Below the pieces are notes generated by a model. The model did no database searches and was not told the DNA's origin. It worked only from the letters and a program-made list of their open reading frames with translations. A DNA stretch of 64,000 bases from Micromonospora echinaurantiaca (GTDB lineage Bacteria > Actinomycetota > Actinomycetes > Mycobacteriales > Micromonosporaceae). Of the stretch, positions 29,825 through 61,999 are shown piece by piece; positions within the stretch are counted from its first letter, which is position 1; every line of letters starts with the position of its first letter. The stretch covers positions 3,050,501 to 3,114,500 of the forward strand of contig NZ_LT607750.1 of the NCBI RefSeq assembly GCF_900090235.1, read 5' to 3'. The translations under genes were made by a program, and so were the position numbers.

Positions 29825-29855
29825 CTTGTCGGTGCTCGGACCTAGTATGCGGAGC

Positions 29856-30575: not shown

Positions 30576-30595
30576 GGCCGGCCACGGACTCAGCA

Positions 30596-30855: not shown

Positions 30856-30863
30856 GTCAAGCC

Positions 30864-32435: not shown

Positions 32436-32440
32436 AAGAT

Positions 32441-32467
32441 CAACATACCATACCGTATGGTATGTTG
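32441..32467. promoter_or_regulatory. Perfect 27-base palindrome, TetR operator
   Basis: Arms CAACATACCATAC and GTATGGTATGTTG flank a single C. It fills 27 of the 37 bases between the start codons of tetR and the DoxX-like gene. AT-rich steps inside it can serve as -10 elements, which would give very short or leaderless transcripts. Confidence 0.88.
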
Positions 32468-32472
32468 ATTTG

Positions 32473-32826
32473 ATGTCAGCCCTTCCCGACCCGGTCTGGC
32501 CCGTCATCCTTCTTGCGGTGATCTCGTTCGGCGACGGTCTGCTGTGTCTGCGTCCGGTGTCGTTCATCGCGAGATGCCTGGAGGACGTGCACTGGCCCCG
32601 CCGCTACTGGTGGGTCCTCGCCCCCGTCAAGTTCGCGGCAGCCGCCGGCCTCATCGCCGGCATCTGGGTGCCGTACCTCGGGCTCATCACGTCGGCCGCG
32701 CTGGTGCTGTACTTCATCGTGGCGATCGCGTTGCACATTCGTGCCCGCGACCTCGGCCGCAACCTCTTCGTCAACGCGACCGGCATGCTGATCGTCTGCG
32801 TCTTCACCCTCGTCGCGAGCTTCTAG
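32473..32826 (+). CDS. DoxX-like small membrane protein
   Basis: 117 residues with four predicted membrane segments: DPVWPVILLAVISFGDGLLC, then VLAPVKFAAAAGLIAGIWVP, YLGLITSAALVLYFIVAIAL, and GMLIVCVFTLVASF. This matches DoxX-like (DoxX_2) proteins of the inner membrane, whose function is mostly unknown and sometimes linked to oxidative stress. ATG at 32473 starts five bases after the palindromic operator with no ribosome site. It is probably repressed by the divergent TetR. Confidence 0.82.
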   Translation: MSALPDPVWPVILLAVISFGDGLLCLRPVSFIARCLEDVHWPRRYWWVLAPVKFAAAAGLIAGIWVPYLGLITSAALVLYFIVAIALHIRARDLGRNLFVNATGMLIVCVFTLVASF

Positions 32827-33039
32827 CTCGGACGGGAGCACATCTCACAGGAGCAGTCCGCTTTGGACCAATGTTGGGATTGGGCCGCAATGAAACGTCG
32901 TAATCTTGTATTCGCCGGACGGCCGCACTCGCCGCATGCGGCAGCCCGGGTACGGGTCCGAAGGGGAGCTCCGGCATGCTGGCCTTCGCCATGCGCGGGT
33001 GAGGGCCGGCAGCAGTCAGACAGCTGGATCTGATCGCAT

Positions 33040-34398: not shown

Positions 34399-34568
34399 CT
34401 GGCGAACCTACGCGCGGCGCTTCCATCGATTCGAGCGCTGTCTTTCCAGATCCGCCCCAGCATCTGGCGACAAGTGTTCGCCGATAAGGTCCTGTCCGGA
34501 CGGCCGCGCCAGCACGGCGGCAGCCCGGTGGTGGACCCCGCCCTGCAGCGGGAAGATTCAAGTAAGGG

Positions 34569-35840
34569 TCATCCGACCGGTGGATCGGCCCCCGGCCGAA
34601 CGCCGGTCTCTTCCTCGGTCCCATCGCCGTCGACGTATGCTCCCATGTCGGCAAGCAGGGAATCCGCCACCACTTCCTCAAGCAGAGCTATGCCGTGTGC
34701 GCGGACGACTTCAGCCAGTTGCGGGTCCCAGGGGGTGTCGTCGACTCGACCCGCCGGTGGGCCCGCACTCGGCACGGCACGCCGGTAGTCTTCCGCCTGG
34801 AGCAGCCACGGTTCCGCGCCCGTCTTGCTCATCACGTGCGCGGCGATCCGCAGGCCTTCGCCGTCGAAGTCTCCGTGGTAGCGGAGCCTCGCCCCGCTGG
34901 CAGCGATCGCTCGTAACAACATGATCGCCGCCGTGCTCGGCCATCCAGCAACGCAGACCAGGGGTGGGCAGGCGACACCGAACCTCTGGAGCGCGAGTGC
35001 GATCACCGCCGGGTTCTCCACGACGAACACCGGTCCCTGCAGTGGACCGACAGGGTGACGCTTGAGGTGAGCCAGGGTGACCACGGATGCCTGACCGGCG
35101 TCGGCCCAGATGCGTAATCCTCGGGCGAGTGGGCCGTCGCCGGCGGGCCGCATCCCCGCGACCAGGACGGAGGTTGACAGCTCGTCACAGGCGACGCCCG
35201 AGTACTCCCACAGCCGCCGGCGACCCTCCGCGTCGGTCGGTGTCTCCTCGTCGCGCAGCGCGGCCAAGGCCCGAAGCACCACCTTGCCGAGCCGGCTGTC
35301 CTCGTCGAGCGCATGGGAGTCACCGGTGAGGCGGGCGGCCAGCACCGGGAGCGGTTCGCCGGCCGCGGGTAGTGCGGTAAGGACCTCGAATGCCTGCTCC
35401 AGCAGCGTCCGGGTGGCGGAGGTGTCGCCGGCGACGAGGCCGCCGGCGCGAACGCGATCGAGCCAGGTGAGCAGGGCCGGCTCGGCGAGGACGGTGGGAT
35501 GCTCGCGGGCCCACTGCCACAGCTTGGCACGCTCGGCGGCGCGTTCCCGGCGGTCCTCCGCTCGACTGGTGAGGGGGCCACCAATCGCCTCGACCACGCC
35601 TCGGGTGTCCAGTCCGCCGGTGGCAGTCTGCAGGATCGTGTCGAGCAGCCGGACGGAAACGGTCACATCCGGGTCCGGGGTGTACGCGAGGCCGAGGAGG
35701 TCGGCCAGCGCGGCCCGTTCAGCCGGCTGGAGGTGGTGCAGGCGTACCCGGCTCACCCGCCCGTCGGTGCCCTCGAATCGGCGTCGAAGCTCCGTCCAGA
35801 GCGGTGCGAGTTCGGGACGGTCGAACCGGGCTGCCGTCAC
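34569..35840 (-). CDS. jetD: Wadjet JetD-like nuclease (TIGR02679/DUF2399)
   Basis: 423 residues; the nuclease subunit of a Wadjet system. The C-terminal Toprim domain has VFVVENPAVI with Glu275 and YHGDFDGEG with Asp324 and Asp326, the metal-binding residues expected for a topoisomerase VI-like nuclease. The N-terminal part is helical with LHHLQPAERAALADLLG. GTG at 35840 overlaps the stop of the SMC-like gene by four bases (GTGA). In characterised Wadjet systems the SMC complex extrudes plasmid DNA and this subunit cleaves it. Last of four co-transcribed genes. Confidence 0.92.
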   Translation of the reverse strand: MTAARFDRPELAPLWTELRRRFEGTDGRVSRVRLHHLQPAERAALADLLGLAYTPDPDVTVSVRLLDTILQTATGGLDTRGVVEAIGGPLTSRAEDRRERAAERAKLWQWAREHPTVLAEPALLTWLDRVRAGGLVAGDTSATRTLLEQAFEVLTALPAAGEPLPVLAARLTGDSHALDEDSRLGKVVLRALAALRDEETPTDAEGRRRLWEYSGVACDELSTSVLVAGMRPAGDGPLARGLRIWADAGQASVVTLAHLKRHPVGPLQGPVFVVENPAVIALALQRFGVACPPLVCVAGWPSTAAIMLLRAIAASGARLRYHGDFDGEGLRIAAHVMSKTGAEPWLLQAEDYRRAVPSAGPPAGRVDDTPWDPQLAEVVRAHGIALLEEVVADSLLADMGAYVDGDGTEEETGVRPGADPPVG

Positions 35841-45914: not shown

Positions 45915-46976
45915 TCAACCACTCGCGCGTGTTGATCTTGCTGTTTCTTGTCGGCAGTCGGGGACGCCGTCCGGTATGGGCGGTCCAAGTCGAATGAGCG
46001 GAGGTCTTTCCGCCCTCAGCTTGGTGCTGGCCCTGCAAACTGTTCGACTCTTCACTTCGTTAGCCCTGAAGTACAGGATGGTCCGACCTTGGTCCTCCAA
46101 CAACACGTGCCATCCATCTTTATATGAGAGCGTGTACCCAATCCACGACTTACCGTTCGTCAGGGTCACTTTCTCGGGCGGCAGCCACGGTTGCTGTACG
46201 ATCTCAGGGACTGCGCTTGGTTCGCCCGGCAGCTGGTACATGCGATCCGTAAGAGCGAGGATGAACAGGGCTAACACGGGCATCCATAGCGGCAATATAC
46301 GGAACTTCACACTCGTCCACGAGATTGATCGATCCTCGCGGGAGTGACGCCAGCGACGACCTGCATTTACCGCGAGCGCAAACGCGGACAGGCAGTACAA
46401 CGTCGACTGGATTCGCCAGTCCGCTGCGACGTCAACGACGTCACCAGGCGACCCGATATCCGCGGTCAGCGCCCGCCACATCGCCGGAAAGGTGTCAATA
46501 TTCGATTCGTTCTCCTCCACCCATTCGGGGAGGCGCGCTGGCCCGGTGAACACAGTGACAAAACGCTGCCACGCCGACTCCAATGCCTCTGGAGCGGAGG
46601 CGTAAGCCGGCGAGACAAGAATTGTTGCCACGCCGGCCAGAAGGGCCAGTACCATCTTACGATAGAGAACGAGTGCCAGAAAGAGCACGGGAAAGAAGGC
46701 CGGGAGCAGCGGAATGACGGTGCCTAGAAGGGTCCCCACTGCACCAGTGGTTGAGGCAATCGTCGTCGCCGTAGCGGTATCATAATTGGATATCACGATC
46801 AGGCGAGTCGCAGTGGCCAAGAGGATGACAATTGGCGACGCGATTAGCGCCTTAGCCGTTGCCGATACCGCCAGCGATAGATTCCCGGGACCCCTCTGCC
46901 GCTGGGTTTGGACAGGTATTGCGGCGGGCGAAGCCGGCGGCTCTTGGTCTTTTGATCTATCGCTGCCTCTCGTCAT
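45915..46976 (-). CDS. Membrane protein of unknown function, 353 aa
   Basis: Three hydrophobic segments in the N-terminal half (around ALIASPIVILLATATRL, GTLLGTVIPLLPAFFPVLFL and MVLALLAGVATILVS), an extracellular-looking loop of about 60 residues, two more segments (STLYCLSAFALAVNAG and LPLWMPVLALFILALT) and a soluble C-terminal domain with SYKDGWHVLLEDQGRTIL. ATG at 46976 follows gaggag; the frame upstream lacks a good site. Base composition is less GC-rich than flanking genes, which suggests transfer. Family unknown. Confidence 0.65.
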   Translation of the reverse strand: MTRGSDRSKDQEPPASPAAIPVQTQRQRGPGNLSLAVSATAKALIASPIVILLATATRLIVISNYDTATATTIASTTGAVGTLLGTVIPLLPAFFPVLFLALVLYRKMVLALLAGVATILVSPAYASAPEALESAWQRFVTVFTGPARLPEWVEENESNIDTFPAMWRALTADIGSPGDVVDVAADWRIQSTLYCLSAFALAVNAGRRWRHSREDRSISWTSVKFRILPLWMPVLALFILALTDRMYQLPGEPSAVPEIVQQPWLPPEKVTLTNGKSWIGYTLSYKDGWHVLLEDQGRTILYFRANEVKSRTVCRASTKLRAERPPLIRLGPPIPDGVPDCRQETARSTRASG

Positions 46977-47300
46977 CGCGCTCCTCGATGTGATAGCGCC
47001 GCCGCAAGTCGTAGACCAGCCATTTTCGTACATGAACTCGCGTCTGCGACAGCTTGAGTCGGGTGGACGACAGCGCGTCCCGGTATCACTTCAAGTGTCG
47101 TCCTAGCCGCTATCGAGGTCACTCAAGGAACGGAGTCATGCGGAGGGCGAGAGGTAGCGGAGCGGCCATACCTCGCCAGCGATTCTGCCGACTCGCCAGC
47201 GTTACTTAAACGTAGCTAGTAACGCGACGGCAGCGCCGAGGAACATCCGGAATAGACCGGCAGATTTCCTGTCAAAGCCGCCGCCCATTCGCCACCCATG
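46977..47300. other. Intergenic stretch between membrane protein and kinase
   Basis: 324 bases between two minus-strand genes, lower in GC. No supportable gene or clear terminator. Confidence 0.5.
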
Positions 47301-48896
47301 TCATCCGCCGATTCGACCCTGCCGATCACCCCGGTCAATCCGATCGAGATGAGTGAGTAGCACTCTGATCTCATCGACCTCGGGCGCCTGCGACCCGTGC
47401 AGCGCCTGCACGTCCGCCAGCAGCTCTTCGAGTTGCTGGCCAGCACTCGTCACATCTCCGAGGCCAGCGGTAAGCATGGCGATCTGATGTCGCAACGGGA
47501 ACAGCTCTGGCGACTGAATGGGAAGTGCCTGCTGCTCCTCGGCGAGTAGCTCGCACAGCTCCACCAGCGCCGCGCTGGCCTCGCCCAGCTCCGCCTGACA
47601 GACGGCAGCCTGCTGTCGGCACTGCCAAATCAGTTCGCGGTCCGGGACGGGGCGTTCGGCCAGGTCAGCGATGAGGCGCTCAAACAGCGGAAGGGCCTTT
47701 CGGTAAGCACCGGCGAGAAGATACAGGTTGGCCAAGGTCACCCGGAGGTCGAGGATCCTCGGCTGTTTGGCACGATGACCCTGCATCATGGGAACTAGAG
47801 CCGTGGCCAGTACCTCAGCCGCCTGGGTGAAGCGTTCCGCCTCCGCCAGTTCCCAGGCCCGCTCCTCGGCCTCGGCCAACTCGTCGAGAGACGGCGGTGC
47901 AACGACCACTTGTGCGTTCCGCGAGCGAACAATATCGACCCGGGTCGGCTGAAGGGGTGCCTGTGACGGCAACGGACCGAAGGGGTACCGGTAGGGCATG
48001 GTGGGATCAACTGACTGGCCCCCTGCCATCGACATCGCAAGGTCGCCAGCTAGGTCCCTGTCCAGAGCACCGAACGGCGCCAGGATCTCGTACACATCGG
48101 CGGCCGAGCCGGGTCGGTGTTGCGGGTCCTTCGCGAGTAGCCGGGTTACGAGCTGTTCCAAGTCGGCGGGTACGCCGGCACGGTGTTCGGCGATCGACGG
48201 AATTGGGTCGTTCATGTGCCGATGCAGCATGCCGAGCGGGTTCTCCGCCCGATAAGGCGGGTTGCCGGTCAGCACCTCGAACATGACACAACCCAGCGCG
48301 TAGAGGTCGGCCCGCGGCCCGACCGCACTGTTCAATGCCTGCTCGGGGGCCATGTACGTCGGGGTCCCTAGGGTATGGCTGGTGGCAGTGAGCCGGGGTA
48401 CGTCCGCCCCAAGCAGCGCGGCCACTCCGAAGTCGAGGACCTTGACCGACCCGGCAGGGGTGACCATCAGGTTCTGCGGCTTGAGATCGCGGTGCACGAG
48501 CGAGGCGGCATGTGCAGTAGCGAGGACCGAGCAGATCTGGGCGCCGATTGCGGCGGCCCACGGCACGGAGAGCCACCCACGCTCTGCGATCAGGTCGGCG
48601 AGGACCATGCCCGGCACGAGCTGCATGACGATGTAGATGTCGTCGCCGTGGTATCCGACGTCGTGAACGCTGGGCACGCCGGGGTGGTCGAGCCGCGCGG
48701 TGACTCGGGCCTCCCGCATGAAGCGCTCGACCGCGGCTTCCCGTTCGCTCTCCGGGATGGCGAGCTTGCGGAGGAACTTGATGGCGACCGGCCGGTCCAG
48801 CTTCTCGTCGTAGCCCGCCCACACCTCCCCCATGCCGCCGTGACCGACCGGGTACGTCAGTTCGTACCGGTCGGCCACACGGTCTTTCGCCTGCAC
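47301..48896 (-). CDS. Soluble Ser/Thr protein kinase with helical-repeat C-terminus
   Basis: 531 residues. An intact Hanks-type kinase domain spans about 9-280: GHGGMGEVW loop, Lys40 (VAIKF), HRDLKPQN at 135-142, DFG at 155-157 and GTPTYMAPEQ. A linker follows, then from about 335 a TPR-like helical region (AWELAEAERFTQAAEVLATA and similar). Unlike most actinobacterial Pkn proteins there is no membrane segment, so it acts in the cytosol. GTG at 48896, 55 bases after HsdR, makes it the last gene of the restriction operon by position. Kinases are found in several phage-defence systems; a role in controlling this one is inferred. Confidence 0.9.
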   Translation of the reverse strand: MQAKDRVADRYELTYPVGHGGMGEVWAGYDEKLDRPVAIKFLRKLAIPESEREAAVERFMREARVTARLDHPGVPSVHDVGYHGDDIYIVMQLVPGMVLADLIAERGWLSVPWAAAIGAQICSVLATAHAASLVHRDLKPQNLMVTPAGSVKVLDFGVAALLGADVPRLTATSHTLGTPTYMAPEQALNSAVGPRADLYALGCVMFEVLTGNPPYRAENPLGMLHRHMNDPIPSIAEHRAGVPADLEQLVTRLLAKDPQHRPGSAADVYEILAPFGALDRDLAGDLAMSMAGGQSVDPTMPYRYPFGPLPSQAPLQPTRVDIVRSRNAQVVVAPPSLDELAEAEERAWELAEAERFTQAAEVLATALVPMMQGHRAKQPRILDLRVTLANLYLLAGAYRKALPLFERLIADLAERPVPDRELIWQCRQQAAVCQAELGEASAALVELCELLAEEQQALPIQSPELFPLRHQIAMLTAGLGDVTSAGQQLEELLADVQALHGSQAPEVDEIRVLLTHLDRIDRGDRQGRIGG

Positions 48897-48951
48897 TGCC
48901 CTCGCCTCCCACGCGGTCGAGCAGGTGCCAGCCCAGGGCTGACGAATCGGT

Positions 48952-51900
48952 CTAAGCGATGCCCTTGCGGCGACGGATCATCTGGTACGCCTGCCGCCGC
49001 GCGAACTGGTTGAGCTGCGAGCGCAGGTTATCGTCGTCGAGGTAGCGCTGCATCAGCTTGCCGTTGTCGTCGTGCCGGGACAGGATCACGTCCTCGATCC
49101 GCTTGTCGCAGACGACGCCGAAGTTGCTCTCGTCGTTGACCATCGCGGCGGCTTCGAGAGTGCCGTCCTCGGCCAGGGCCACGATCTGCTGCTCGACCCA
49201 GACCTTGTCCGACTCACCCAAGCCGATCCCGAACTTGTCATTGAACGCATCGATCAGCTCCGACAAGACGACCTTCTCCAAGTCGTGTTGCCGGCCCGCT
49301 CCCCCGCCGACGAAGCCAGGCAGCATCTGCTCACCCTCCGGTGACAGCGACGCATCGTGCTCGCCGGTCTTGCTGACCCGCAGGTGGGTCAGCTGTACCT
49401 CACCGATGTCGACGCTCGGATCCTGTCGGCGCGGCAGCCGGTTGAGCAGCGCGCGCCCGTACAGGTAGAGCCGCTCCAGGTCCGGGTCCTGGTAGGGCAC
49501 GATCTGGCTGAGGAACGCGTACATGCGGGTGTAGTCGCGCAGCGCGGACCGGAAGCCGTCCGCGGCCTCCTGGTGCTCCTCCGCCAAGGCTTTGAAGCGC
49601 TGCACGGCCGGCTCGGTAAAGCGGTAGAGAGAGGCGTGCGCCCGCTGGAGCGCGGTGTCACTCGTCGCCTTCTGCTCCGCCGCGAGCAACGCCTCGGCGT
49701 AGGCCTGCATCTCGGAGTCGACCAGGACCGGGTACCCGGTCACCGCGTTCTGGGCGGTGTAGAGCAGGTTGGGGTCGGTGGGGGTGGTGGCGGCGGTCTC
49801 GAAGTACGGCTTGAACTGCTCGGCGATGTCGCCGGCCTCGTTGACGAAGTCGAGGACGAAGACGTCGCCCTGCGCCTTGAGCGGGTGGGTGCGGTTGAGC
49901 CGGGACAGGGTCTGCACGGCGGCGACGCTCTTGAGCAGCTTGTCCACGTACATGGTCGTGAGCAGCGGCTGGTCGAAGCCGGTCTGGTACTTCTCGGCCA
50001 CAACCAGGATCTTGTACTCGGTGTCCTGCTTGGCCTTCGGGGTGCCGGCGTACTTGTCGTCCGCAGCGGTGTAGGCGAACCGCTCGGGCAGCTCACCCTC
50101 GCTGAACCCGTTGATCCGCGCCTCGGTGTGCTCGACGCCGTCGACCTCCAGATCGCCGGAGAAGGCGACCAGCGAGTCGCAGCCGACGTAGCCCTGCATC
50201 TCGACGTACTTCTTGATGGCGGTGTGCAGGCGGACGGCGGCCTCGCGTGAGCCGGTGACCACCATGGCCTTGGCGCGGCCGCCGAGGCGCGGCGCGGTGT
50301 GTTTGCGGAAGTGCTCGACGGTGATCTCGGCCTTCTGCGCCTGCATGGTGGGGTGCAGGCTGGCGAAGCGAGCGAGCTGGGCGCCGGCCTTCTTCGGGTC
50401 GACCTCCGGGTCGTCGGGGTTGGCGTTGGCCAGCTTCCAGTACGCCTTGTAGGTGAGGTAGTTGCGCAGCACGTCGAGGATGAAGCCCTCGTCGATGGCC
50501 TGCCGCATCGAGTACGTGTGGAACGGCTGCGGGTTGCCGGTGACCGGGTGCAGCGTGCCGAAGAGTTCGAGGGTCTTCGGCTTCGGCGTGGCGGTGAACG
50601 CGAAGTACGACAGCGTCTCGTGCCGGCCGCGGGCCAGCGCCGACGCGGTGAGCAGGTCGCCCGACTCGTCCACGTCGTCGCTGCCGAACTTCAGCAGCAC
50701 CTTCTTCAGCGCCGCAGCCGAGTCGCCGGACTGCGACGAGTGCGCCTCGTCGACTATGACGGCGAACCGCTTGCCCTTGAGCCCTTGCACCTTGTCGAGG
50801 ATGTAGGGGAACTTCTGCATCGTCGTGATGACCACCTTGGCCGTCTCGCCCTGGAGGGCGGCGGCGAGCTGGGCGGAGTCCTTGTCGATCCGCTGCACCA
50901 CGCCGGGCACGTGCTCGAACTGGAAGACCGTGTCCTGCAACTGCCGGTCCAGCACCACTCGATCGGTGATGATGATGACCTTGTCGAAGACCGGTTCGTT
51001 GGGGCGCAGTCCCTTGGTGAGGGCGTCTTGGCCGAGTGTCGGCGCGGTGTGCAGGCTGGAGAGCCGGTGTGCCAGCCAGGCGATGGTGTTCGACTTGCCT
51101 GACCCGGCTGAGTGCATGACCAGGTAGTTCTGGCCCGAGCCGTTGCGGGCGGCGTGATCGGTGAGCTGGGTGACCGCGTGCCACTGGTGGTAGCGCGGGA
51201 AGATCAGGCTCCGCGACTCCTTGTCGGTGTGGAGGAACCGCCGGACCAGGTCCAACCAGGTGTCCGGGTGCCAGATCTGCTCCCACAGGTAGGAGCTGCG
51301 GTAACCGGATGCGCCCGCCGGCGGGTTGCCGGCGCCGCCGGAGACGCCCGGCCCCTCCGAGCCCGTGTTGAAGGGCAGGAACCGGGTCTTGTCGCCCGCC
51401 AGCTTCGTCGTGACGAAGACCAGGTCGGGATCCACGGCGAAGTGCACGAGGGTACGCCGCGCGAAGAGCAGTTCCTTCGGGTCACGCGTCTTGCGGTACT
51501 GCTCCTTGGCGTCCTCGACGGTCTGCGCGGTCAGGGGGTTCTTCAGCTCGGCCGTGGCGAGGGGGATGCCGTTGACAAAGAGGACCAGGTCGAGGGTTTT
51601 GTTATTGCTCGTCGAGTACGCGAGTTGGCGGGTGACGGTGAGGCGATTGGCGCGGTAGAGCCTCAGCGCATCGTCGGTGATGGCGTGGGCCGGCTTGAAG
51701 TAGGCCAGCCGGATCAGGACGCCCTTGTCCTTGACCCCCCGGCGAAGCACGTCCAGTGGCCCACGCTCGTCGATCTGCTTGGCGAGGTGCTGGGCGAAGT
51801 GGCGCTGCGCCTCGTCCAAGTTGTTCCCGTGGTACGCAAGCAGCCTTGACCAATTGTCTCGCTGGGTTGCACCGATGAAGGCAAACAGTTCAGCGGTGTC

Positions 51901-52014
51901 GAGGCCGAAATCCTTCGAGTAGTCGTCGGAAGAGCCCCGCTCCCAGCCGGAAGCGAGCAACACTTCCTCGATAACCTCCTCGAACCGCTCCTCGCCGTAC
52001 ACAAACGCGCTCAT
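48952..52014 (-). CDS. hsdR: Type I restriction endonuclease subunit R
   Basis: 1020 residues. The N-terminal nuclease domain has Asp142 and Glu156-x-Lys158 (TLDLVLFVNGIPLATAELKN). Helicase motor: Walker A HSAGSGKSN (301-309), motif II VDEAH (421-425), then FAFTATPK and QTLSRLNRT. A helical C-terminal domain binds the methylase. ATG at 52014 overlaps the stop of the AIPR gene by four bases (ATGA). Translocates and cuts DNA lacking the host modification. Confidence 0.95.
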   Translation of the reverse strand: MSAFVYGEERFEEVIEEVLLASGWERGSSDDYSKDFGLDTAELFAFIGATQRDNWSRLLAYHGNNLDEAQRHFAQHLAKQIDERGPLDVLRRGVKDKGVLIRLAYFKPAHAITDDALRLYRANRLTVTRQLAYSTSNNKTLDLVLFVNGIPLATAELKNPLTAQTVEDAKEQYRKTRDPKELLFARRTLVHFAVDPDLVFVTTKLAGDKTRFLPFNTGSEGPGVSGGAGNPPAGASGYRSSYLWEQIWHPDTWLDLVRRFLHTDKESRSLIFPRYHQWHAVTQLTDHAARNGSGQNYLVMHSAGSGKSNTIAWLAHRLSSLHTAPTLGQDALTKGLRPNEPVFDKVIIITDRVVLDRQLQDTVFQFEHVPGVVQRIDKDSAQLAAALQGETAKVVITTMQKFPYILDKVQGLKGKRFAVIVDEAHSSQSGDSAAALKKVLLKFGSDDVDESGDLLTASALARGRHETLSYFAFTATPKPKTLELFGTLHPVTGNPQPFHTYSMRQAIDEGFILDVLRNYLTYKAYWKLANANPDDPEVDPKKAGAQLARFASLHPTMQAQKAEITVEHFRKHTAPRLGGRAKAMVVTGSREAAVRLHTAIKKYVEMQGYVGCDSLVAFSGDLEVDGVEHTEARINGFSEGELPERFAYTAADDKYAGTPKAKQDTEYKILVVAEKYQTGFDQPLLTTMYVDKLLKSVAAVQTLSRLNRTHPLKAQGDVFVLDFVNEAGDIAEQFKPYFETAATTPTDPNLLYTAQNAVTGYPVLVDSEMQAYAEALLAAEQKATSDTALQRAHASLYRFTEPAVQRFKALAEEHQEAADGFRSALRDYTRMYAFLSQIVPYQDPDLERLYLYGRALLNRLPRRQDPSVDIGEVQLTHLRVSKTGEHDASLSPEGEQMLPGFVGGGAGRQHDLEKVVLSELIDAFNDKFGIGLGESDKVWVEQQIVALAEDGTLEAAAMVNDESNFGVVCDKRIEDVILSRHDDNGKLMQRYLDDDNLRSQLNQFARRQAYQMIRRRKGIA

Positions 52015-54140
52015 TCGACGCTCTCCTCGTCGGAGTCCTCGGTTTCGCGCAGGATCGCCCGAGCGAGCGAGACCAGCGACCCCTCGTTGCCGAGGAACCA
52101 CCGGTGCGGGCCCTGCACGGCGACGGGCGCACCGTTCCACTCCGCCAGCGCATACATCCGCATGACCAGACCGCTCGGGGTGTACCGCTTGCCGTCAGCA
52201 GCCCACACCAACGGTCGCGACCTGCTGTTCACCCAGGTCGCCGTGCCCCTCCGGCCGTCCTCGGCCAGCCACGCGGACAGGGCCTGCCGCTCGGGCTCCG
52301 TAGCCGCCCGAAAGCTGAGGCGGCTGCCCTCCTTGATCCGAGCGGCATCTACCAGGACGTGCACGGAGTTGCGGCGCCGGGTGGTTCGCTGCCGTGGCAC
52401 GGGGAGGTAGTCCGGCCGCAACTCGGGCACGGCTGCGCCCGTCGCGAACGCGGACAGCACGGACCGCACCAGCGGCCGGATACGCTCAGCCGAAGCTAGC
52501 GTCGGCCCGATAAACGAGTTCTGGCCGAACTGCTCGTCGATCTCGGTCACCAGCCATCGAACCGCCTTGCCGACCAGATCGGGAACGCCGTCGAGCACAC
52601 TCTTCCAGTCGTAGGCGACATCATCGATGCCGTCCAGGCCTACCTCCTGAAACACGATATGCGCAACGGTCAGGCTACCCTGCTCCGCGACGGCGGCGGC
52701 GCGGCCCTCAAGCTCCGACTGCATGGCGTGCAGCGAGTCGCGAACCCGGCGCAGCAGTTGAACGGATCGCCAGATCTGTATGGCCGGCGGGCGTTCGCCG
52801 AAGACTCGGGCATAGGCACCCTGGGGACCTTCCTCCCACAGGAGGTCCTCGTTGTTGCGAACACGTTGCGCCAGCCTCGGATCGGCGTGTGCACAAGCCA
52901 GCGCTATCGCGGCCTCGCGGACGGTACAGCCGCTCTCCGGCGAAGGCTCGAACTCGCTCCTCCTGATTGTGTAGGTCAGCCCGAGGGTCAGCGAGAACTC
53001 CTCCCGGATCGCGAGCTGCACCTCGTCGAGCGCTACAAAGTCTCGCCGTTCGATGTGGTTCTGGGTGTTCGTTGCTTTTGTTATCTGGGCGCTGGTCGTT
53101 TCGTCTGCGCTCTCGATGAGCCGGACGCCCACGAGTGCGTCCAGAACGGCATCGCCGCCGTCCTTGACGGCCGCGGCGATCGCCGCGACCGTCTGGGCGC
53201 CGTTGACGACGCTGACGTCGGTCGCCTCGATCGTGGCCGTGCCATAGGGCGAACTCCGACTCTTCGGCGTCAGCCGCAGGCCGTCACACAAGATGGTCAC
53301 GCCGTTGTTTCGATACCAGAACTCGTAGGGCTCCTCGTGCAGGCTCCGTGCGATGTCGGCGTTGACCTGGGTCACCCCAAGCGATTCCCGGATGTTCTTG
53401 CGGAACAAATGGTCGCCGTTTTCCTCGTACCACGAGGCCACTGTGGCTGCTGTGGTGACACCGTTGACCGCCCGCATCGGGGTGCTCAGCTCAAACCAGC
53501 GGTCCATCTCGAAGTTCAGTTTGATCGGCTCCGACTGTGCGGTCTTGCGGACGATATTCCAGACGTCGTTGACGTACAGTACCTCGAAATCGAGGTACTG
53601 TCCGTGGGCGTTGAATTCGTCTCGCAATTCCCCCAACCGCAGCAACACATTGTCGTGCAGCGGCGCTTGACGCATGAGTCCGATAGTCAGCATGATCCGC
53701 GCCTGCGGATCGTCGACGATCGTCGTGATCTGATTGGTGAAGGGAAGGAACTTCGCATTAAACCGGCCGAACTCCCGGCGGTCAATCCGACGCAGCCCGT
53801 CCGCCATTGTCATTACATCGGACTCACCGAAGTTTGCCTCCGCCCGATCGCTCCACTTTGTCTGAATCAGCCAGAGCCGGGGCGCGCCAGCGGCGAACGC
53901 CACGGCGTCAATGCCAAAGTCTTGACCGCCGTCCGTCACCATCGCCGCGGCGCGGTCGTCACCGCTGTCGGTGCGGGTGTTCACGATGGCTGCGGCGAGC
54001 GCCCGAGTGAGGAGGCAACGACGCCGCTGCTGCTCGTCCGGATGCGTGAAGTCGCTGATATCTATGCGATCCTCGAATCTCCGGCGCAGTGAATCGGCGA
54101 TGACTCTCACCTGTCGCGACGCGTCCGTCGGTTGGGACAC
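52011..54140 (-). CDS. AIPR-family abortive infection protein inside the RM operon
   Basis: 709 residues. The N-terminal part (about 60-100) is REase-like: Asp78 in FGIDAVAF and Gln93-x-Lys95 in LIQTKW. The AIPR core follows with FRKNIRESLGVTQVNADIAR and EPYEFWYRNNGVTILCDG, then VNGAQTVAAI. The final 110 residues, with AADGKRYTPSGLVMRMYALA and GPHRWFLGN, resemble a RAMA-type domain known from restriction and methylase proteins. GTG at 54140 follows gggagga; the stop overlaps hsdR by four bases, so the two are coupled. Probable role: nuclease or abortive-infection back-up of the type I system. Confidence 0.85.
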   Translation of the reverse strand: MSQPTDASRQVRVIADSLRRRFEDRIDISDFTHPDEQQRRRCLLTRALAAAIVNTRTDSGDDRAAAMVTDGGQDFGIDAVAFAAGAPRLWLIQTKWSDRAEANFGESDVMTMADGLRRIDRREFGRFNAKFLPFTNQITTIVDDPQARIMLTIGLMRQAPLHDNVLLRLGELRDEFNAHGQYLDFEVLYVNDVWNIVRKTAQSEPIKLNFEMDRWFELSTPMRAVNGVTTAATVASWYEENGDHLFRKNIRESLGVTQVNADIARSLHEEPYEFWYRNNGVTILCDGLRLTPKSRSSPYGTATIEATDVSVVNGAQTVAAIAAAVKDGGDAVLDALVGVRLIESADETTSAQITKATNTQNHIERRDFVALDEVQLAIREEFSLTLGLTYTIRRSEFEPSPESGCTVREAAIALACAHADPRLAQRVRNNEDLLWEEGPQGAYARVFGERPPAIQIWRSVQLLRRVRDSLHAMQSELEGRAAAVAEQGSLTVAHIVFQEVGLDGIDDVAYDWKSVLDGVPDLVGKAVRWLVTEIDEQFGQNSFIGPTLASAERIRPLVRSVLSAFATGAAVPELRPDYLPVPRQRTTRRRNSVHVLVDAARIKEGSRLSFRAATEPERQALSAWLAEDGRRGTATWVNSRSRPLVWAADGKRYTPSGLVMRMYALAEWNGAPVAVQGPHRWFLGNEGSLVSLARAILRETEDSDEESVE

Positions 54141-54226
54141 CCGGTCCTCCCAGCAGTTCAATGGCCTGCGAGTTCGCTATTTCACTTTCGATGATGCCGG
54201 GGCTCAGTTCTTCTCGATGGTTGCAC

Positions 54227-55501
54227 TCATGCCAGGTCGACACCGGACGCCGTCGGCACGTCGATTTGTCCCGTCACGGCCGCTGCAATCAACGCCTTCC
54301 GCCGCTCGGCCAACAACTTGTCCTGCTGCTGCATGAGACTCACCGCTTCGTCAATAGGTTGGACCGCTCGATCGATCTCGGCAACTATCCGTTGCTGCTG
54401 AGAAGGACTTTTCCGAGGAACCGGCATCGCCTTCATCGCGGCAACGTTGAAGTGCGATTGAATGCTGCCGACTGCAAACTCCGCGACCCGCCGCTTGGCG
54501 TAACTTGAATTAAGTAGATACTCCGCGAACTTTGGCACGAGGGACACGCCTGGCCGGACAATCACGAGGTCAATACAGTTCGCGCCATCGAATTCCGAAG
54601 TTACGACCGCTGCAGCGCCTGCTTGGCCGGTACGCACAACCACAAGATCACCGGACCGCAGTCGGGACTTGCGATGAACCAGGTGGCCCTCATGGCTGAT
54701 TCTCACTAGATCTCGGGGGTCGATCTTCCCTGGCCGAACGTTGATGCCACGCAGGGCAGGCACACCGCTCCCATCTACATACCAAGCAGCCGGGGTGACG
54801 ACAATTCCGACCGTCACGGCCTCCACAAGGTGCTTAAGTGGGATAAGGTCCTCACCGTTCTGCTCGGCGCCGATCAGTTGCTCGATCACGCGTTCGCGCT
54901 TCATCATAAGGAGAGAGTGCACACGCGCCCTGGATGCACGCACTTGATCGAGCCGCCCCGTCTGCGCGTCAAGGAAGTCGGCGATGCGCCGCTGCTCCTC
55001 GATCGACGGCACTGGGATTGACGCAGATGCCAGCCGTTCGCCTACAAGCTCAATCTGGTTAGTTGCACCAACAATGAGGGCGGAGTAGATGTAGTGCTGG
55101 AACGGCTCGGAGGAAAGGTAGTAGTAAGCGTATCGGGAATCGAGCACATCCGGCGAGACTCTCACTCGGGTCACATGACCATCAGCCATGGCCGGTCGGC
55201 CGTCGGGAGTTTCCGAAAAGTAGCCCACCCGGCCAAGCGTGCCGCGCCCGGTCGAGTTGAGTAGGACATCACCCTTTCTCAGAAACCCCTTTAGGTTCAA
55301 AGGGTTACCTGCGAAGGCGTGGAAGCGGGCCCGACTCCAGTCAATTCCCTCCGGCTGGTTTGCGGCCTGACTGACCGCCCACACCGGTCCGTCGTCAACA
55401 TACTCCGGAGCAGATCCTCGATTGATAGAAAGGACAGCCCGCTTTAAGGGCAACCATCGCCAGGAAGCCGGTATGCCTAGCCCGGCAAGTCCAACGCTCA
55501 C
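54227..55501 (-). CDS. hsdS: Type I restriction specificity subunit S
   Basis: 424 residues with two target-recognition halves, each ending in a conserved helix: EEQRRIADFLDAQTGRLDQV (about 165-185) and QQQRIVAEIDRAVQPIDEAV near the C-terminus. Sets the DNA sequence recognised by the complex. ATG at 55501 overlaps the hsdM stop by four bases. GC is lower than in hsdM and hsdR, as usual for exchangeable specificity genes. An 86-base gap separates it from the AIPR gene. Confidence 0.94.
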   Translation of the reverse strand: MSVGLAGLGIPASWRWLPLKRAVLSINRGSAPEYVDDGPVWAVSQAANQPEGIDWSRARFHAFAGNPLNLKGFLRKGDVLLNSTGRGTLGRVGYFSETPDGRPAMADGHVTRVRVSPDVLDSRYAYYYLSSEPFQHYIYSALIVGATNQIELVGERLASASIPVPSIEEQRRIADFLDAQTGRLDQVRASRARVHSLLMMKRERVIEQLIGAEQNGEDLIPLKHLVEAVTVGIVVTPAAWYVDGSGVPALRGINVRPGKIDPRDLVRISHEGHLVHRKSRLRSGDLVVVRTGQAGAAAVVTSEFDGANCIDLVIVRPGVSLVPKFAEYLLNSSYAKRRVAEFAVGSIQSHFNVAAMKAMPVPRKSPSQQQRIVAEIDRAVQPIDEAVSLMQQQDKLLAERRKALIAAAVTGQIDVPTASGVDLA

Positions 55502-57459
55502 CTCGTCACCTCGCCGAGCAGTGACTGAATCTCCGCCTCGAGTGCCTTGATCTCTGCGTCGATCTCGGCGAGTGGCCGGGGCGACTGGTAGACGTAGAAG
55601 TGGCGGGTGAACGGAATCTCGTAGCCGATCTTAGTCTTGGTTTCGTCGATCCAACCGTCTGGGACGTGCGGCAGTACCTCGTGCTTCAGGTACACGTGGA
55701 TGTCCTCGTCCAGCGGCACGTTCTCGTTGTCCCGCAGGTCTGCGTCCGCGACCGGCTTGCCCTTGCGGTCGGTCTGCACCTCTCCTTCGGGGTTGCTGAC
55801 CGAGAATGCCTCCCACACCGCCTTCTCCACCGCCGCCGGCAGCTTGCCCAACCCGTTCAGCTTCATGGCGAACTCAGCACGGGTCGCGGACTTCAGTCCG
55901 ATCAGGGACTTCGCCGCCGCCAGCAGCGACTCGCGCTCGGCGTACTTGAGCACCGCCCGGGCCTCTGCGAGCAGCGCAACCGTCTCCTCACTGACCTCGA
56001 ACCGCAGCCGCAATGGGCGCTCGACAGTGATCCGCTGGTAGCCGAAGTCGGTGGTCTTGAAGACCTTTACCCTCGCGTGCTGCGGGTGCTCCGCGTCGTC
56101 CGCGATGGACAATGCTTCAACGTATGTCCGAGTCAGCTCGGCGATGTGCTCGTCGGTGAGCATCTTGCGCTTGTCGCCGAGGCTCTTGCGCATCTTGGTC
56201 CAGTAGTCGCGGCCGTCGAGCAGCACGACCTTGCGCCGCCGGGCCGGCTCCTTGCGGTTGGTGAGGATCCAGAAGTAGGTGAAGATGCCAGTGTTGTAGA
56301 AGAGTTGGTCGGGCAGCGCGACGATGCCCTCCAAGAGGTCGTTCTCCAGGATCCAGCGGCGGATCTCCGACTCCCCCGACCCGGCCGCGCCGGTGAAGAG
56401 CGGCGAGCCATTGAAGACGATGGCCAGCCGGCTCCCGCCGTCCTCGGGACGCTTCATCTTCGAGATCATGTGCTGGAGGAACAGCAGCGAGCCATCGTTG
56501 ATCCGGGGCAGACCGGCGCCGAACCGGCCGGCGTGGCCGCGGGCCGCCTCGTCCTTGATGAACTTCTCAACCTTCTTCCACTCCACGCCGAACGGCGGGT
56601 TGGCAAGCATGTAGTCGAAGCGCTCGCCCTCATGGCCGTCCTGGCTGAACGAGTTGCCGAAGGCGATCTTCGTCGGGTCGCCGCCCTTGAGCATCATGTC
56701 CGACCGACAGATCGCGTACGTCTCGCCGTTGAGCTCCTGCCCGTACACCTCGACGGTGGCGTGCGGGTTGTGGGCCTGGATGTGCTCCTGTGCCTCGGTG
56801 AGCATGCCGCCAGTGCCGCACGCCGGGTCGTAGACCTTGCGGACGATGCCCGGGGTGACCAGGTCGTCCTCGTCAGGAGCGAGCAGCAGGTTGACCATCA
56901 GCTTGACGACCTCGCGCGGGGTGAAGTGCTCACCGGCGGTCTCGTTGCTGATTTCCGAGAAGCGGCGGATCAACTCCTCGAAGACGTAGCCCATCTGGTG
57001 GTTGGAGACGACATCCGGGTGCAGGTCGATGTCGGCGAACTTGGCGACCACCTGGTAAAGCAGCCCGGCTTCGGCGAGGCGGCTGATCTGGGTGTCGAAG
57101 CCGTACTTCTCTAGCACGTCGACGGCGCCGGGCGAGAAGCCGCCGATATACGCCCGCAGGTTGAGCGCGACATGGTCCTGGTCTCCGAGAAGCTTGCGGA
57201 AGGACATCTCGCTGGTGTTGTAGAACGACAGCCCGGCGGTCTTGCGCAGCACCGGGTCCATGTTCTGCACGCCCATGTCGCTGAGCTGCTTGTGCCGGGC
57301 GAGCACCGCGTCCTTCGTCGGCTCCAACACGCAGTCCAGACGACGCAGCACGGTCAGCGGGAGGATCACCCGGCCGTACTCGGAGCGCTTGTAGTCGCCG
57401 CGCAGCAGGTCGGCCACGTCCCAGATGAAGGTCGCGAGTTCTTGGTGCTTGGTGCTCAC
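55498..57459 (-). CDS. hsdM: Type I restriction methylase subunit M
   Basis: 653 residues. N-terminal helical HsdM domain (TKHQELATFIWDVADLLRGD), SAM-binding motif I DPACGTGG at 211-218 and catalytic motif IV NPPF at 287-290 are intact, indicating active N6-adenine methylation. The C-terminal region ends in a helix that docks on HsdS. GTG at 57459 follows aaagga; a longer frame to 57510 has no site. Long insertions (about 420-600) are typical for this HsdM group. Confidence 0.95.
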   Translation of the reverse strand: MSTKHQELATFIWDVADLLRGDYKRSEYGRVILPLTVLRRLDCVLEPTKDAVLARHKQLSDMGVQNMDPVLRKTAGLSFYNTSEMSFRKLLGDQDHVALNLRAYIGGFSPGAVDVLEKYGFDTQISRLAEAGLLYQVVAKFADIDLHPDVVSNHQMGYVFEELIRRFSEISNETAGEHFTPREVVKLMVNLLLAPDEDDLVTPGIVRKVYDPACGTGGMLTEAQEHIQAHNPHATVEVYGQELNGETYAICRSDMMLKGGDPTKIAFGNSFSQDGHEGERFDYMLANPPFGVEWKKVEKFIKDEAARGHAGRFGAGLPRINDGSLLFLQHMISKMKRPEDGGSRLAIVFNGSPLFTGAAGSGESEIRRWILENDLLEGIVALPDQLFYNTGIFTYFWILTNRKEPARRRKVVLLDGRDYWTKMRKSLGDKRKMLTDEHIAELTRTYVEALSIADDAEHPQHARVKVFKTTDFGYQRITVERPLRLRFEVSEETVALLAEARAVLKYAERESLLAAAKSLIGLKSATRAEFAMKLNGLGKLPAAVEKAVWEAFSVSNPEGEVQTDRKGKPVADADLRDNENVPLDEDIHVYLKHEVLPHVPDGWIDETKTKIGYEIPFTRHFYVYQSPRPLAEIDAEIKALEAEIQSLLGEVTR

Positions 57460-57578
57460 CAGGTTCCTTTCGATTGCCTTAAGCCAAGGAGTATGGCCGC
57501 TGGTCTCCAACGTTGCAGTCCCCCACCCGGTGCAGATCAGGGGCCTGTTCCGTCAGTAGGCGCGGGGGTCAGGGCCCC

Positions 57579-59507
57579 TTACTTCGCCGGTCGCTTCCGA
57601 CTCGAGCGCTGATCAGGGTAGAGCGAGCCACGGGCCAGGCCATCGGCGGTGAGCCGGACTAGGTCAGCGCCCAGCGACGCGGCCTGTCGGATAGCCGACT
57701 CGAAGGCGTCGAGGCGCCGGAACGCCTCCCCGTGCGCCCGTTGTTCGTCCAACGGCAGCCGCCGCACCTGCGCCCGCCGGATGTCGAAGCGCAGCGTCCC
57801 GGACAGGCTCGACGCTTGCTTCTCGTTGGCCGAAGTGCGGAGCTGGCCGGCGAGAAACCACGGATCGAGCGCGGCCGGGTTGGGGCGCAGCAGGTAGAGG
57901 TTGCGGCCCAGCAGTGCCCCGTCGGCGGTGACCACCCGAGCCGTGAGCGTCCGGGCGATCATCGGCACCACCACGTCGCCGATGGCAAGCGGGATCTCCT
58001 GACCGAGTCGCTCGTCTGCCTGCCCGGAGGCGTCGACACCGGCCAAGACATCCGGCACGGTGAGCACCGGCGGCCCGCCGGTTGATCCGCCGCCGTCTGG
58101 TGATGAGCCGGCTCGGATCGGGCCGATCAGTTGCAACGCGCCGCCGCGCGCCAGCTCGGCGACCGTGACGACGAGCGGCGTCACCCCGTCTGATGCGGGC
58201 GCGACCTGCGGCATCAGCGCCGGTAGGTCACCGACGATGGCGGCCAGCCGCTCTCGGGTGCGTACCAGATGCTCGCCGGTCTGCTCGACCCCGGCGGCAG
58301 GCTGCCGGCGCGCGGGGGTGAGGTCGACCTCCTCGTCAAGCAGTTCGATGATCGGCACAGCGCGGACGAAGCCGGCCTCTTCCAGGTCGGCGTCCGGCGC
58401 GGCGGTGAAGGCCCGCCAGGCAGCGAGGATCCGCGCGGACAGGTCGGCGATCTCACCCTCGGCGGCGTCGACCAGCAGCGCCCGCGCCGGTGCGGGCGCG
58501 TCCGCGAGCGGCCGCCGCAGCACCCACAGATGCAGCGGTACGCCGTGCGGCGCGGCCACCCCGCTGGGCAGCGCGATGACGGCGCGCAGCGCGCCACTTC
58601 TCAGCAGCTGGGCGCGGATCCGTCGGCCCGCGCGTCGGCCGGCGGCCGCGGGTGGCATCAGCAGGACGGCGTGTCCACCGGGCCGTAGGTGGGCCAGGGT
58701 GTGCTGCACCCAGGCCAGCTCCGGTTCGGTACGCGGCGGGATGCCGTACTCCCAGCGGGGGTCGTAGCCGAGTTCCTCGTGCCCCCAGGTGGTGATGCCG
58801 AACGGCGGGTGACACACCACCGCGTCGACGGTGCGGCCCGCGAAGGCGTCGGCGCGCAGCGAGTCGCCGGGGCACACCTCGCCGGGTACCTCGCGCAGGG
58901 CGAGCCAGAGTCCGGCCAGCTTGGCAAGGTCCTCGTCGAGCTCCTGCCCATAGGCCGAGGTGCAGCCGGCGCGGACGGCGGCCCGCAGCGTGGCGCCGGA
59001 GCCGGTGGCCGGGTCGAGCACGGAGCCGCCACCGACGCCGGCGAGCCCGGCCATCAGGTCGGCCAGCTCGTCGGGGGTGGCAAATGGGCGGCCGGGGCCG
59101 GGTGTGGAGAAGCGTTGCCAGAGCTCGTCGAAGGCGGCCTGCGGTCCGAGTTCCTCGGCGAGCGCCTCGATCTCGGGTCGCAGGTCGGCGACGGGTGTGT
59201 CGAGGCGGCGTGGTCGTTCGCCGCGCTGCCGGGCGAGTAACAGGGCGCCGACGGCGGCGAGTGCGGTCGCCGGACTCGCCGAGACTGCGGCGAGGTGGCG
59301 CCAGAGCCGGTCGGCCCGGGACAGCTCGGGGAGCTTGCCCTGCTTGCGCAGCCACTGCTCAACCTCGGCGAGATCGAACTCCGGGCTGGCACTGGTGCCG
59401 CCCACCGGCGTCGGGAAGTCGGGATGGCGTTTCCGCCAGTTGCTGACGGCGGCGCGACCTACCCCGGCGAGCCGGGCGATCTCCGCTGCCGTGATGGTCG
59501 GGTTCAC
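57579..59507 (-). CDS. HTH-N6-adenine methylase-like protein with altered motif IV
   Basis: 642 residues. An N-terminal HTH (TITAAEIARLAGVGRAAVSN) is followed by a methylase fold with motif I DPATGSGA (165-172). Motif IV reads CHPPFG (His233) where active N6 methylases have Asn or Asp before PPF. The C-terminal 200 residues look like an S-type target-recognition half (LRFDIRRAQVRRLPLDEQRA). GTG at 59507 has cggag at good spacing; GTG 59513 overlaps that site. It is 119 bases upstream of hsdM on the same strand and probably in the same transcription unit. The altered residue may remove catalysis and leave a DNA-binding regulator. Confidence 0.85.
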   Translation of the reverse strand: MNPTITAAEIARLAGVGRAAVSNWRKRHPDFPTPVGGTSASPEFDLAEVEQWLRKQGKLPELSRADRLWRHLAAVSASPATALAAVGALLLARQRGERPRRLDTPVADLRPEIEALAEELGPQAAFDELWQRFSTPGPGRPFATPDELADLMAGLAGVGGGSVLDPATGSGATLRAAVRAGCTSAYGQELDEDLAKLAGLWLALREVPGEVCPGDSLRADAFAGRTVDAVVCHPPFGITTWGHEELGYDPRWEYGIPPRTEPELAWVQHTLAHLRPGGHAVLLMPPAAAGRRAGRRIRAQLLRSGALRAVIALPSGVAAPHGVPLHLWVLRRPLADAPAPARALLVDAAEGEIADLSARILAAWRAFTAAPDADLEEAGFVRAVPIIELLDEEVDLTPARRQPAAGVEQTGEHLVRTRERLAAIVGDLPALMPQVAPASDGVTPLVVTVAELARGGALQLIGPIRAGSSPDGGGSTGGPPVLTVPDVLAGVDASGQADERLGQEIPLAIGDVVVPMIARTLTARVVTADGALLGRNLYLLRPNPAALDPWFLAGQLRTSANEKQASSLSGTLRFDIRRAQVRRLPLDEQRAHGEAFRRLDAFESAIRQAASLGADLVRLTADGLARGSLYPDQRSSRKRPAK

Positions 59508-60238: not shown

Positions 60239-61999
60239 ATGCGCCGTGCGAACCCGCCGACCACGACCAGACCGGCCAACCACCGGGTCGTTCGCAAGGA
60301 CGTAACCCGACCTCGCCACGATCCGCCGACGCTCTTCGACCTCGACCTGCCCGAGCGGCCGGAGGGCACGTATCTGACCTCGGTCTACCAGCTCGAGCGA
60401 GTACCGGCGACGACCGAGGGTCTGCACGACGCCGTCGACCAGCGGTACCTGCGCAAGCACGACTTCACGGTCGAGGAGCGCCTGGTGGCCGGCGCACCGG
60501 CTCTCCTGGTGCACGGAACCGTGCCGCGTCAGCGGGCGGACTGGTGCGATGTGCTGGCTTCGTTGACCGGGGAGATGATCGACCTCGGCTTCAGCAGTGG
60601 CGGCGCGGCGCTGCTCGTGGCCGTCGACGACCACGTCTATGCGCTGGCCTACGGCACCGTCGGTCGCCACATGGTCGACCTGGACCTGGCCAACACCGGG
60701 TTCGGGATCGGCTTTGCGGTCCGTTCGCTTGCTCCCGACGAGATCAAGCAGGTGCGCCGCCGGGTATTCGGCACCACCGGCCGTGTGGACCGCAACATGG
60801 TGCCGGGCGGTCAGCACATTCGGATGTACGGGATCGACAAGTGGGGCGAGATCGTCGGCCAGGTATGCGGGCGGACGTTCAACCCGAACCTGACTGTCTG
60901 CCGGTCCACCCGCAAGGCCACCCCGGTTGAGGGTAGCGATGCCCTGCGTATCCACCTCGGCGTGGAGCCCGAGAACCTGCTCGCCGATCTACGAGAGATC
61001 AATCGGGTCTGCAAGCAGGAGGCCCCCTTCGAGGACCTGGAGTTCATCACCCAGATCCGTCCTATCCCGTCCCGCGACCCGCGGTTGTCCGAGGTGGAGG
61101 GGCGGCTTGACGCGCTGCTCGCGTCACCGGACCCGGACGAGGTCGGTCTGGCCGTACCGGGCCGGGTGCTCGGCGAGATCGAGCGGATCCGGTCGTACAA
61201 GCTTCGGGTGCCGAAGTCGGGGCTCAGCACGGCGCGTCTGTCGGAGCTCACCCTCGCCGACATCCTCACCCAGACTGGCGGTGTGCCGGAGGGCGAGCGT
61301 TGGGCCTCCCTCTGCAACGGACGGATCACCCTCTGCGCCGACACCAGGGGCGAGGAAGAGATCGGCTCGACCGCCGCGTCGCGATGGATCACCGCCCAGC
61401 TCCCACACGGCACGAGTCAACTGCTGCTGCATGAGGGCGGCTGGTATGAGATCGGCGACCGGCACCGGGAGTTCCTCCGCGCCGAGATCGAGCAGATCCT
61501 CGCGGTGCCGGCCAGCATCGCGCTCCCGGCATGGACCGCCGACCTGACTGACGAGGCGGAGTACAACATCCACGCCGCCGCTGTCTGTGGTCTGACGCTG
61601 CTGGACCGGCGCCTGCTGCGGACGAGCCAGCACCACCGCGGTATCGAGGCGTGCGACCTGCTCGGGCCCAACGACGAGCTGATCCACGTCAAGAGGGCCA
61701 AGGGAAGTTCAGCACTGAGCCACCTCTTCGCCCAAGGCGAGGTATCGGTCGACGCGCTGCGCTACGAGGCGGACGCCCGGAAAGCCCTGGTCGAAATGGT
61801 CCGCCAGCAGCCGACGGCGCGGCTCATCGACGCGGACTTCCGTCCCCGCAAGGTCATCTACGCGATCGCCCTCGGCTCCGGCAAGCCGCTCACCGTCCAC
61901 TCGCTCTTCACCTTCGCCCAAGTGGCGCTCTACCGGGCGATGAAGTCCCTGCGCAACGAGGGCGTCGAGGTCGAGGTCGTCGGCATTCCCTCCGCCTGA
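60239..61999 (+). CDS. DUF6119 / TIGR04141-type sporadically distributed protein
   Basis: 586 residues, soluble, no known catalytic motif. The C-terminal half carries IEACDLLGPNDELIHVKRAK and GSSALSHLFAQGEVSVDALR, the hallmark of the TIGR04141/DUF6119 family, in which this Lys/Ser-rich stretch resembles a nuclease-like core (ELIHVKR fits a D/E-x-K arrangement). Family members occur sporadically, often near restriction systems; function not established. ATG at 60239 follows gaggag. It lies beside a type I RM operon, which supports a defence role by association only. Confidence 0.82.
   Translation: MRRANPPTTTRPANHRVVRKDVTRPRHDPPTLFDLDLPERPEGTYLTSVYQLERVPATTEGLHDAVDQRYLRKHDFTVEERLVAGAPALLVHGTVPRQRADWCDVLASLTGEMIDLGFSSGGAALLVAVDDHVYALAYGTVGRHMVDLDLANTGFGIGFAVRSLAPDEIKQVRRRVFGTTGRVDRNMVPGGQHIRMYGIDKWGEIVGQVCGRTFNPNLTVCRSTRKATPVEGSDALRIHLGVEPENLLADLREINRVCKQEAPFEDLEFITQIRPIPSRDPRLSEVEGRLDALLASPDPDEVGLAVPGRVLGEIERIRSYKLRVPKSGLSTARLSELTLADILTQTGGVPEGERWASLCNGRITLCADTRGEEEIGSTAASRWITAQLPHGTSQLLLHEGGWYEIGDRHREFLRAEIEQILAVPASIALPAWTADLTDEAEYNIHAAAVCGLTLLDRRLLRTSQHHRGIEACDLLGPNDELIHVKRAKGSSALSHLFAQGEVSVDALRYEADARKALVEMVRQQPTARLIDADFRPRKVIYAIALGSGKPLTVHSLFTFAQVALYRAMKSLRNEGVEVEVVGIPSA

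Follow-up and report, generated by a model that had tools for sequence, protein, structure and literature searches.

The 64,000-nucleotide stretch of Micromonospora echinaurantiaca analyzed here (the window; from a genome of one contig, 7.2 Mb) carries on its minus strand a type I restriction operon that belongs to a conserved five-gene unit of its class. This unit consists of a methylase-like protein with a helix-turn-helix (HTH-methylase), HsdM, HsdS, HsdR, and a Ser/Thr kinase. In the window, a sixth gene, coding for an AIPR protein, is present between hsdS and hsdR, and AIPR is a movable and removable part of the operon. The slot of PrrC likewise lies between hsdS and hsdR. In our reading, to which we give a probability of roughly 0.45, an HTH-methylase/kinase module controls type I restriction, and AIPR, placed like PrrC, serves as a backup nuclease. 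Each component is known by itself. What appears to be new is their constant combination, the site with its cassettes, and our reading of the AIPR domains. In the parts of the searched literature available to us, neither the five-gene unit nor a RAMA domain of AIPR was described.

The HsdR search covered 298 order, 296 class, and 396 phylum genomes, and gene orders were then compared in fetched stretches of at most 20 kb, so that AIPR and partner genes can be missed. The hsd-centered set comprises 46 class loci (25 order loci, one of them that of the window, plus 21 further ones) and 19 deeper loci. The order loci represent 25 of 35 places with an HsdR identity of about 45% or more (G147, a 3-kb contig, was left out and nine others were not included), the further class loci 21 of 23 places, and the deeper loci 19 of 40 genomes; L038 and L142 repeat other loci and are left out of the counts. 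The kinase is found on the hsdR strand in 37 of the 46 class loci (18 order and 19 further) and the HTH-methylase in 35 (17 and 18), with the five-gene order and strand kept in most. Among the deeper relatives, a kinase occurs in one locus of 19 (L248) and the HTH-methylase in none; more than 3 kb of sequence is available next to hsdR, toward the kinase position, in 16 of the 19. The first-pass annotation had proposed to look for conservation of a six-gene order, AIPR included. It is the five-gene order that proves to be the rule, and the full six-gene order occurs in only nine of 36 AIPR loci of the same hsd family.

In their divergence, the kinase and the HTH-methylase follow HsdR nearly as closely as HsdM itself does. 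The correlations of pairwise distances are 0.885 for HsdR–HsdM (70 loci), 0.863 for HsdR–kinase (66 loci), 0.822 for HsdR–HTH-methylase (59 loci), and 0.791 for kinase–HTH-methylase (51 loci), against 0.473 for HsdR–AIPR (37 loci); for each, none of 999 permutations was as high. These values are inflated by host relatedness, and the set holds near-duplicates, since the hsd- and AIPR-centered sets share genomes (L032/L160, L229/L224, L249/L163). Common host ancestry feeds all the correlations, and the contrast with AIPR is thus weightier than the values themselves.

In the kinase-domain tree, the 66 kinases of this hsd family are separated with two changes from 14 paralogs of the same genome and 18 other kinases (the kinase and AIPR trees are FastTree trees with long-branch warnings). 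A length filter let 14 of the 17 paralogs enter. Of the 18 others, 12 adjoin HTH-methylases that have other effectors, and six adjoin AIPR without this hsd family; one of these six, L222, has another hsd family. Matches of the genome's 17 other kinases to the operon kinase end by residue 333, and the C-terminus is unshared. A search with residues 300–531, which reaches only relatives with shared short words, listed 58 proteins, of which 52 have a kinase domain and six are TPR proteins. The HRDxKxxN and DFG motifs are intact in all 72 kinases collected. The kinase looks soluble, in line with the cytosolic location first assigned to it; its strongest hydrophobic 19-residue stretch is weak (1.64) and lies inside the kinase domain. 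Kinase and HTH-methylase had also been counted as operon members, and the conserved order, the co-divergence, and the kinase grouping apart from the genome's other kinases all bear this out.

The minus strand has open frames for all six genes (Table 1), in the order first proposed: HTH-methylase, HsdM, HsdS, AIPR, HsdR, kinase. The proposed gaps of 119, 86, and 55 bases are also recovered. The first, between HTH-methylase and HsdM, requires the later HsdM GTG at 57459 (taken from the translation) and is 68 bases with the long frame. The second, between HsdS and AIPR, requires the AIPR GTG at 54140 and is 65 bases with the long frame; this GTG, with GGGAGG ahead, is the likely start and gives 709 amino acids, as in database record P0001. 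The third separates HsdR and kinase. Four-base overlaps join HsdM to HsdS and, as had been noticed, the AIPR stop to the hsdR start (ATGA).

Pfam, PADLOC, and NCBIfam were used to check the gene families. The Pfam E-values are 1e-35 for AIPR (PF10592; 124.1 vs. a gathering score of 25), 1e-60 and 3e-30 for N6_Mtase in HsdM and HTH-methylase, 1e-15 for HSDR_N, and 7.5e-48 for Pkinase. By its domains, the enzyme is of type I, with HsdM_N and N6_Mtase in HsdM, an HsdS, and HSDR_N with an SNF2 motor in HsdR; HsdR scores under the cut-off of TIGR00348 (188.6 vs. 284.55). NPPF is present in 71 of 72 HsdM family members; among the HsdR relatives, Walker A occurs in 79 of 79 and the ExK pattern in 65. 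HsdS has the lowest third-position GC content (GC3 = 0.65) of the six genes. The three terminator-like sites detected all lie on the plus strand, and shuffled sequences gave more; the power of the promoter scan is low here.

Table 1. Features of the restriction operon and of its divergent neighbor, in window coordinates
Feature	Position	Strand	Remarks
HTH-methylase (M2; HTH, N6-methylase-like part, single recognition-domain-like part)	57579..59507	-	Likely start 59507, matching 642-aa database record P0121; frame open to 59513; motif IV HPPF
HsdM, type I modification subunit	55498..57459	-	Frame open to 57510; PF02384 and HsdM_N
HsdS, specificity subunit	54227..55501	-	Methylase_S; PADLOC Specificity_I
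AIPR protein between hsdS and hsdR	52011..54140	-	Frame open to 54161; PF10592
AIPR N-terminal domain, PD-(D/E)xK nuclease-like	53535..54077	-	Residues 22-202 of 709
AIPR central domain, ParB/SspE-like	53058..53492	-	Residues 217-361
AIPR C-terminal domain, RAMA-like	52044..52376	-	Residues 589-699
HsdR, type I restriction subunit	48952..52014	-	HSDR_N, SWI2_SNF2; ATGA overlap with AIPR
Soluble Ser/Thr kinase, TPR-like C-terminus	47301..48896	-	Pkinase; TPR matches under cut-off
DUF6119/TIGR04141 protein, divergent recurrent neighbor	60239..61999	+	PF19614 3e-115; beside the unit in other loci

In the structural model, AIPR has a predicted FokI-like nuclease domain and a C-terminal domain with a modeled RAMA fold, a candidate reader of methyladenine (in the RAMA comparison, two of 18 rows, L297 and L306, look like wrong-strand translations and add noise). 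Separately, in L049 (9072–10439), a NucS-like nuclease directly after hsdR combines a C-terminal domain of the AIPR type with a weak match to DUF5655.

A fixed coupling of AIPR with HsdR, as first suggested, does not hold. AIPR was not seen in 40 of the 46 class hsd loci (at least one more lies just outside the stretch, apparently in L249). Three of these, L110–L112, have the same DUF4352-flanked site as the window and an HsdR 91%–92% identical. In L112, hsdS and hsdR overlap directly at ATGA, and L110 has the same four bases. Two close relatives, M. yasonensis (L149) and M. chalcea (L153), have AIPR in the slot, and L149 shares the ATGA AIPR/hsdR junction with the window. The link of AIPR with restriction genes in general stands: in the AIPR-centered set (the best 80 of 368 relatives, some on short contigs), 63 loci adjoin type I hsd genes, 36 of this family, 18 with an EcoEI-type hsdR (a label from the Pfam of one cluster member), and nine with another hsdR. 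In the 36 same-family loci, AIPR occupies the S–R slot in 11; in the other 25 it lies ahead of the HTH-methylase, separates R from the kinase, or follows one of these two, on either strand. On the AIPR tree (82 rows), the hsdS–AIPR–hsdR (S-A-R) label, carried by 13 rows, needs six changes, at least five of them forced by starred branches, vs. a shuffled mean of 12.3. Several gains or losses of the S-A-R position are implied, yet it remains clustered, and is stable within the subclade of the window. Two junctions of the unit accept cargo. The gap between matches, which unmatched gene ends inflate in some cases, is >500 bases in 11 of 40 loci for S–R and 12 of 37 for R–kinase, vs. two of 35 for HTH-methylase/HsdM. 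Besides AIPR, the cargo includes an SNF2 helicase with an Mrr nuclease (L116), another SNF2 helicase (L117), RhuM (L126), and an AAA ATPase with DUF4276 (L127).

In an alternative explanation, AIPR is a hitch-hiking defense gene that collects at restriction loci, functionally uncoupled, the slot being merely permissive. Defense genes do cluster (PMC3506569), AIPR tracks HsdR weakly and sits in many positions on both strands, and 15 of the 80 AIPR loci have neither a type I gene nor an N6-methylase match (two more have an N6-methylase only). We nevertheless judge this explanation rather improbable, given the three kinds of hsd genes beside AIPR, the ATGA junction also present in L149, the repeated changes of the S-A-R position, which is more clustered than in shuffles, and a RAMA-like domain that would suit a methylase neighbor. 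As a separate observation, AIPR is followed directly by a kinase in L191, L196, L197, and L227, whose stretches gave no type I gene matches.

Eighteen Micromonospora loci with an HTH-methylase were compared (the window, L110–L112, L153, and L129–L141). DUF4352 adjoins the HTH-methylase in all 18, and the cassettes on the opposite side are of four types: hsd with kinase in five, kinase with SNF2 helicase and type IIG enzyme in seven, kinase fused to a DruE-like helicase in four, and a DISARM-like DrmD/DrmMI pair in two, where no kinase was seen in the locus. The cassettes without hsd mostly bring a kinase other than that of the window. At this site, thus, different effectors occur next to a constant HTH-methylase. 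The same data, together with the 68- or 119-base gap to HsdM, would fit an HTH-methylase that belongs to the chromosomal site and next to which the operon landed like the other cassettes. This is quite unlikely in our view: the HTH-methylase/HsdM order is kept in other families (18 of the 21 further class loci), and HTH-methylase and HsdR co-diverge (0.82). A broader proposal, which we put forward with considerable doubt, is that the HTH-methylase and Ser/Thr kinase form a general control chassis of actinomycete antiphage systems. An altered methylase reading S-adenosylmethionine (SAM) and DNA, and a kinase, would serve interchangeable effectors at one site (type I restriction, type IIG/SNF2, Druantia-like helicase, perhaps the DISARM-like pair). 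AIPR in the type I version would be a methyladenine-reading suicide nuclease, the DNA-cutting counterpart of PrrC.

In type I systems, host sites receive adenine methylation from HsdM–HsdS, and DNA that lacks it is cleaved by HsdR. The data establish gene content, its conservation, co-divergence, AIPR presence or absence at one site, and the domain folds of the models; for the additional genes, we infer every regulatory step. We regard the HTH-methylase and kinase as a probable control module because they are conserved with different effectors. In the HTH-methylase-like protein, the SAM-binding motif is kept but His replaces the catalytic Asn of motif IV, as it does in 119 of the 120 best-listed homologs of 6531 matches. 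This protein would bind DNA and SAM and would sense or set the methylation state or operon expression. The kinase would phosphorylate restriction components once infection or DNA damage is sensed. AIPR is most probably a FokI/Mrr-type nuclease that would be gated by its central domain and held, through the RAMA domain, on DNA that the operon has methylated or on the operon's complex. With restriction blocked or the pattern of marks wrong, AIPR would then cut DNA, as a second layer or a suicide step, a role that PrrC fills in another type I operon with a different activity.

Several points weigh against this reading. Six class loci (L114, L115, L123, L128, L148, and L268) are without the kinase though >5 kb is available on either side, and L049 and L262 are without it despite room on the kinase side (in the ninth, L147, the stretch is cut there). 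The kinase is thus the rule, but some of these enzymes do without it. AIPR, for its part, occurs in the 15 loci mentioned above without type I genes in the stretch. The Pfam RAMA model PF18755 gives no match in AIPR at an E-value of 10, nor at the AIPR locus of the genome itself. Methyladenine reading by RAMA is itself contested: MPND bound equally to DNA with and without N6-methyladenine (PMC9963953). In motif IV, other HTH-methylases keep Asn (NPPF or NPPY; 18 of the 50 motifs readable in 58 rows, including L140 of the same genus), and the His of this protein might be compatible with catalysis.

In another explanation, the HTH-methylase is a second, active methylase equipped with a recognition domain of its own. 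The locus would have two specificities, AIPR would be a type IV enzyme cutting foreign DNA with the wrong pattern of methyladenine, and the kinase would only tune expression. The predicted structure, with an HTH, an HsdM-like core, and a recognition-domain-like C-terminus (top structural match, PacII M1), is consistent with it, as are the relatives with NPPF/NPPY, and RAMA–nuclease fusions have been suggested as type IV enzymes (PMC11037411). The near-constant His among the best-listed homologs argues the other way, and one HTH-methylase beside four effector types at a single site is odd for a cognate methylase; we hold this explanation to be fairly unlikely. For AIPR itself, action from self-methylated DNA upon failure of restriction is favored only slightly over a type IV enzyme. 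The first-pass annotation had named independent variation of kinase, AIPR, and methylase-like gene as evidence against a layered system. AIPR does vary in this way; the kinase and the methylase-like gene mostly do not.

Compared with known systems, the locus shares with type I restriction–modification the HsdM, HsdS, and HsdR subunits with intact motifs in M-S-R order, and adds the usual kinase and HTH-methylase-like partners and the AIPR insert. It resembles MADS in bringing together HTH, methylase, specificity subunit, and kinase (matches to mad1, mad2, mad5, and mad6; some of the gene roles in MADS follow the model names). HsdR, however, is present here, and NCBIfam scores are far under the MADS cut-offs (MAD6, 131 of 460; MAD5, 63.8 of 400; MAD2, 54.2 and 14.4 of 720). 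Methylase with Ser/Thr kinase also recalls the logic of Pgl and type 2 BREX (PMC12839542). The PglW score is 77.8 bits vs. 990, and no PglZ is among the matches listed (PADLOC best 25 families each) for ten window proteins, the rest of the genome not having been searched. Two different M-like proteins occur in the non-canonical PacII-type M1M2S enzymes (PMC9613975), where the M subunits have NPPF and NPPY, whereas here one has HPPF, an HTH, and its own recognition-like part.

EcoprrI carries PrrC, a latent suicide nuclease embedded in the type I operon (PMC3874165), and AIPR would by analogy be an extra effector gene of this kind. PrrC is an ATP-binding cassette (ABC)-type anticodon nuclease, whereas AIPR models as a nuclease/ParB-like/RAMA protein in which Pfam finds no ABC family; its guard role would follow from the analogy. 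The AIPR/AbiU1 family is known near restriction genes (PMC3506569, PMC2292703), a neighborhood also observed here. An N-terminal HEPN domain is described for it in PMC3506569, whereas the N-terminus here is modeled as a FokI-like nuclease.

Among the neighbors, the DUF6119/TIGR04141 protein, encoded divergently from the unit, is again found next to it in L121, L124, L150, L153, L194, L251, L254, and L267; it also adjoins the type IIG cassette in L139. It is a possible further component of the system. Downstream from the kinase, a minus-strand protein (45915–47033) with a weak GT87 match lies in the lowest-GC stretch near the operon (0.59). Elsewhere in the window, 14000–22000 and 28000–35000 have a GC content of about 0.63–0.70, vs. 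about 0.70–0.77 around, and may be acquired regions.

Type I restriction is generally described in terms of three genes. If our reading is right, the kinase and non-canonical methylase that co-diverge with it across a bacterial class would make restriction a regulated, phosphorylation-controlled process, and would tie it to Pgl and MADS. An AIPR nuclease bearing a RAMA domain, if confirmed, would give the widespread AIPR family a concrete mechanism and would explain its recurrence beside adenine methylases.

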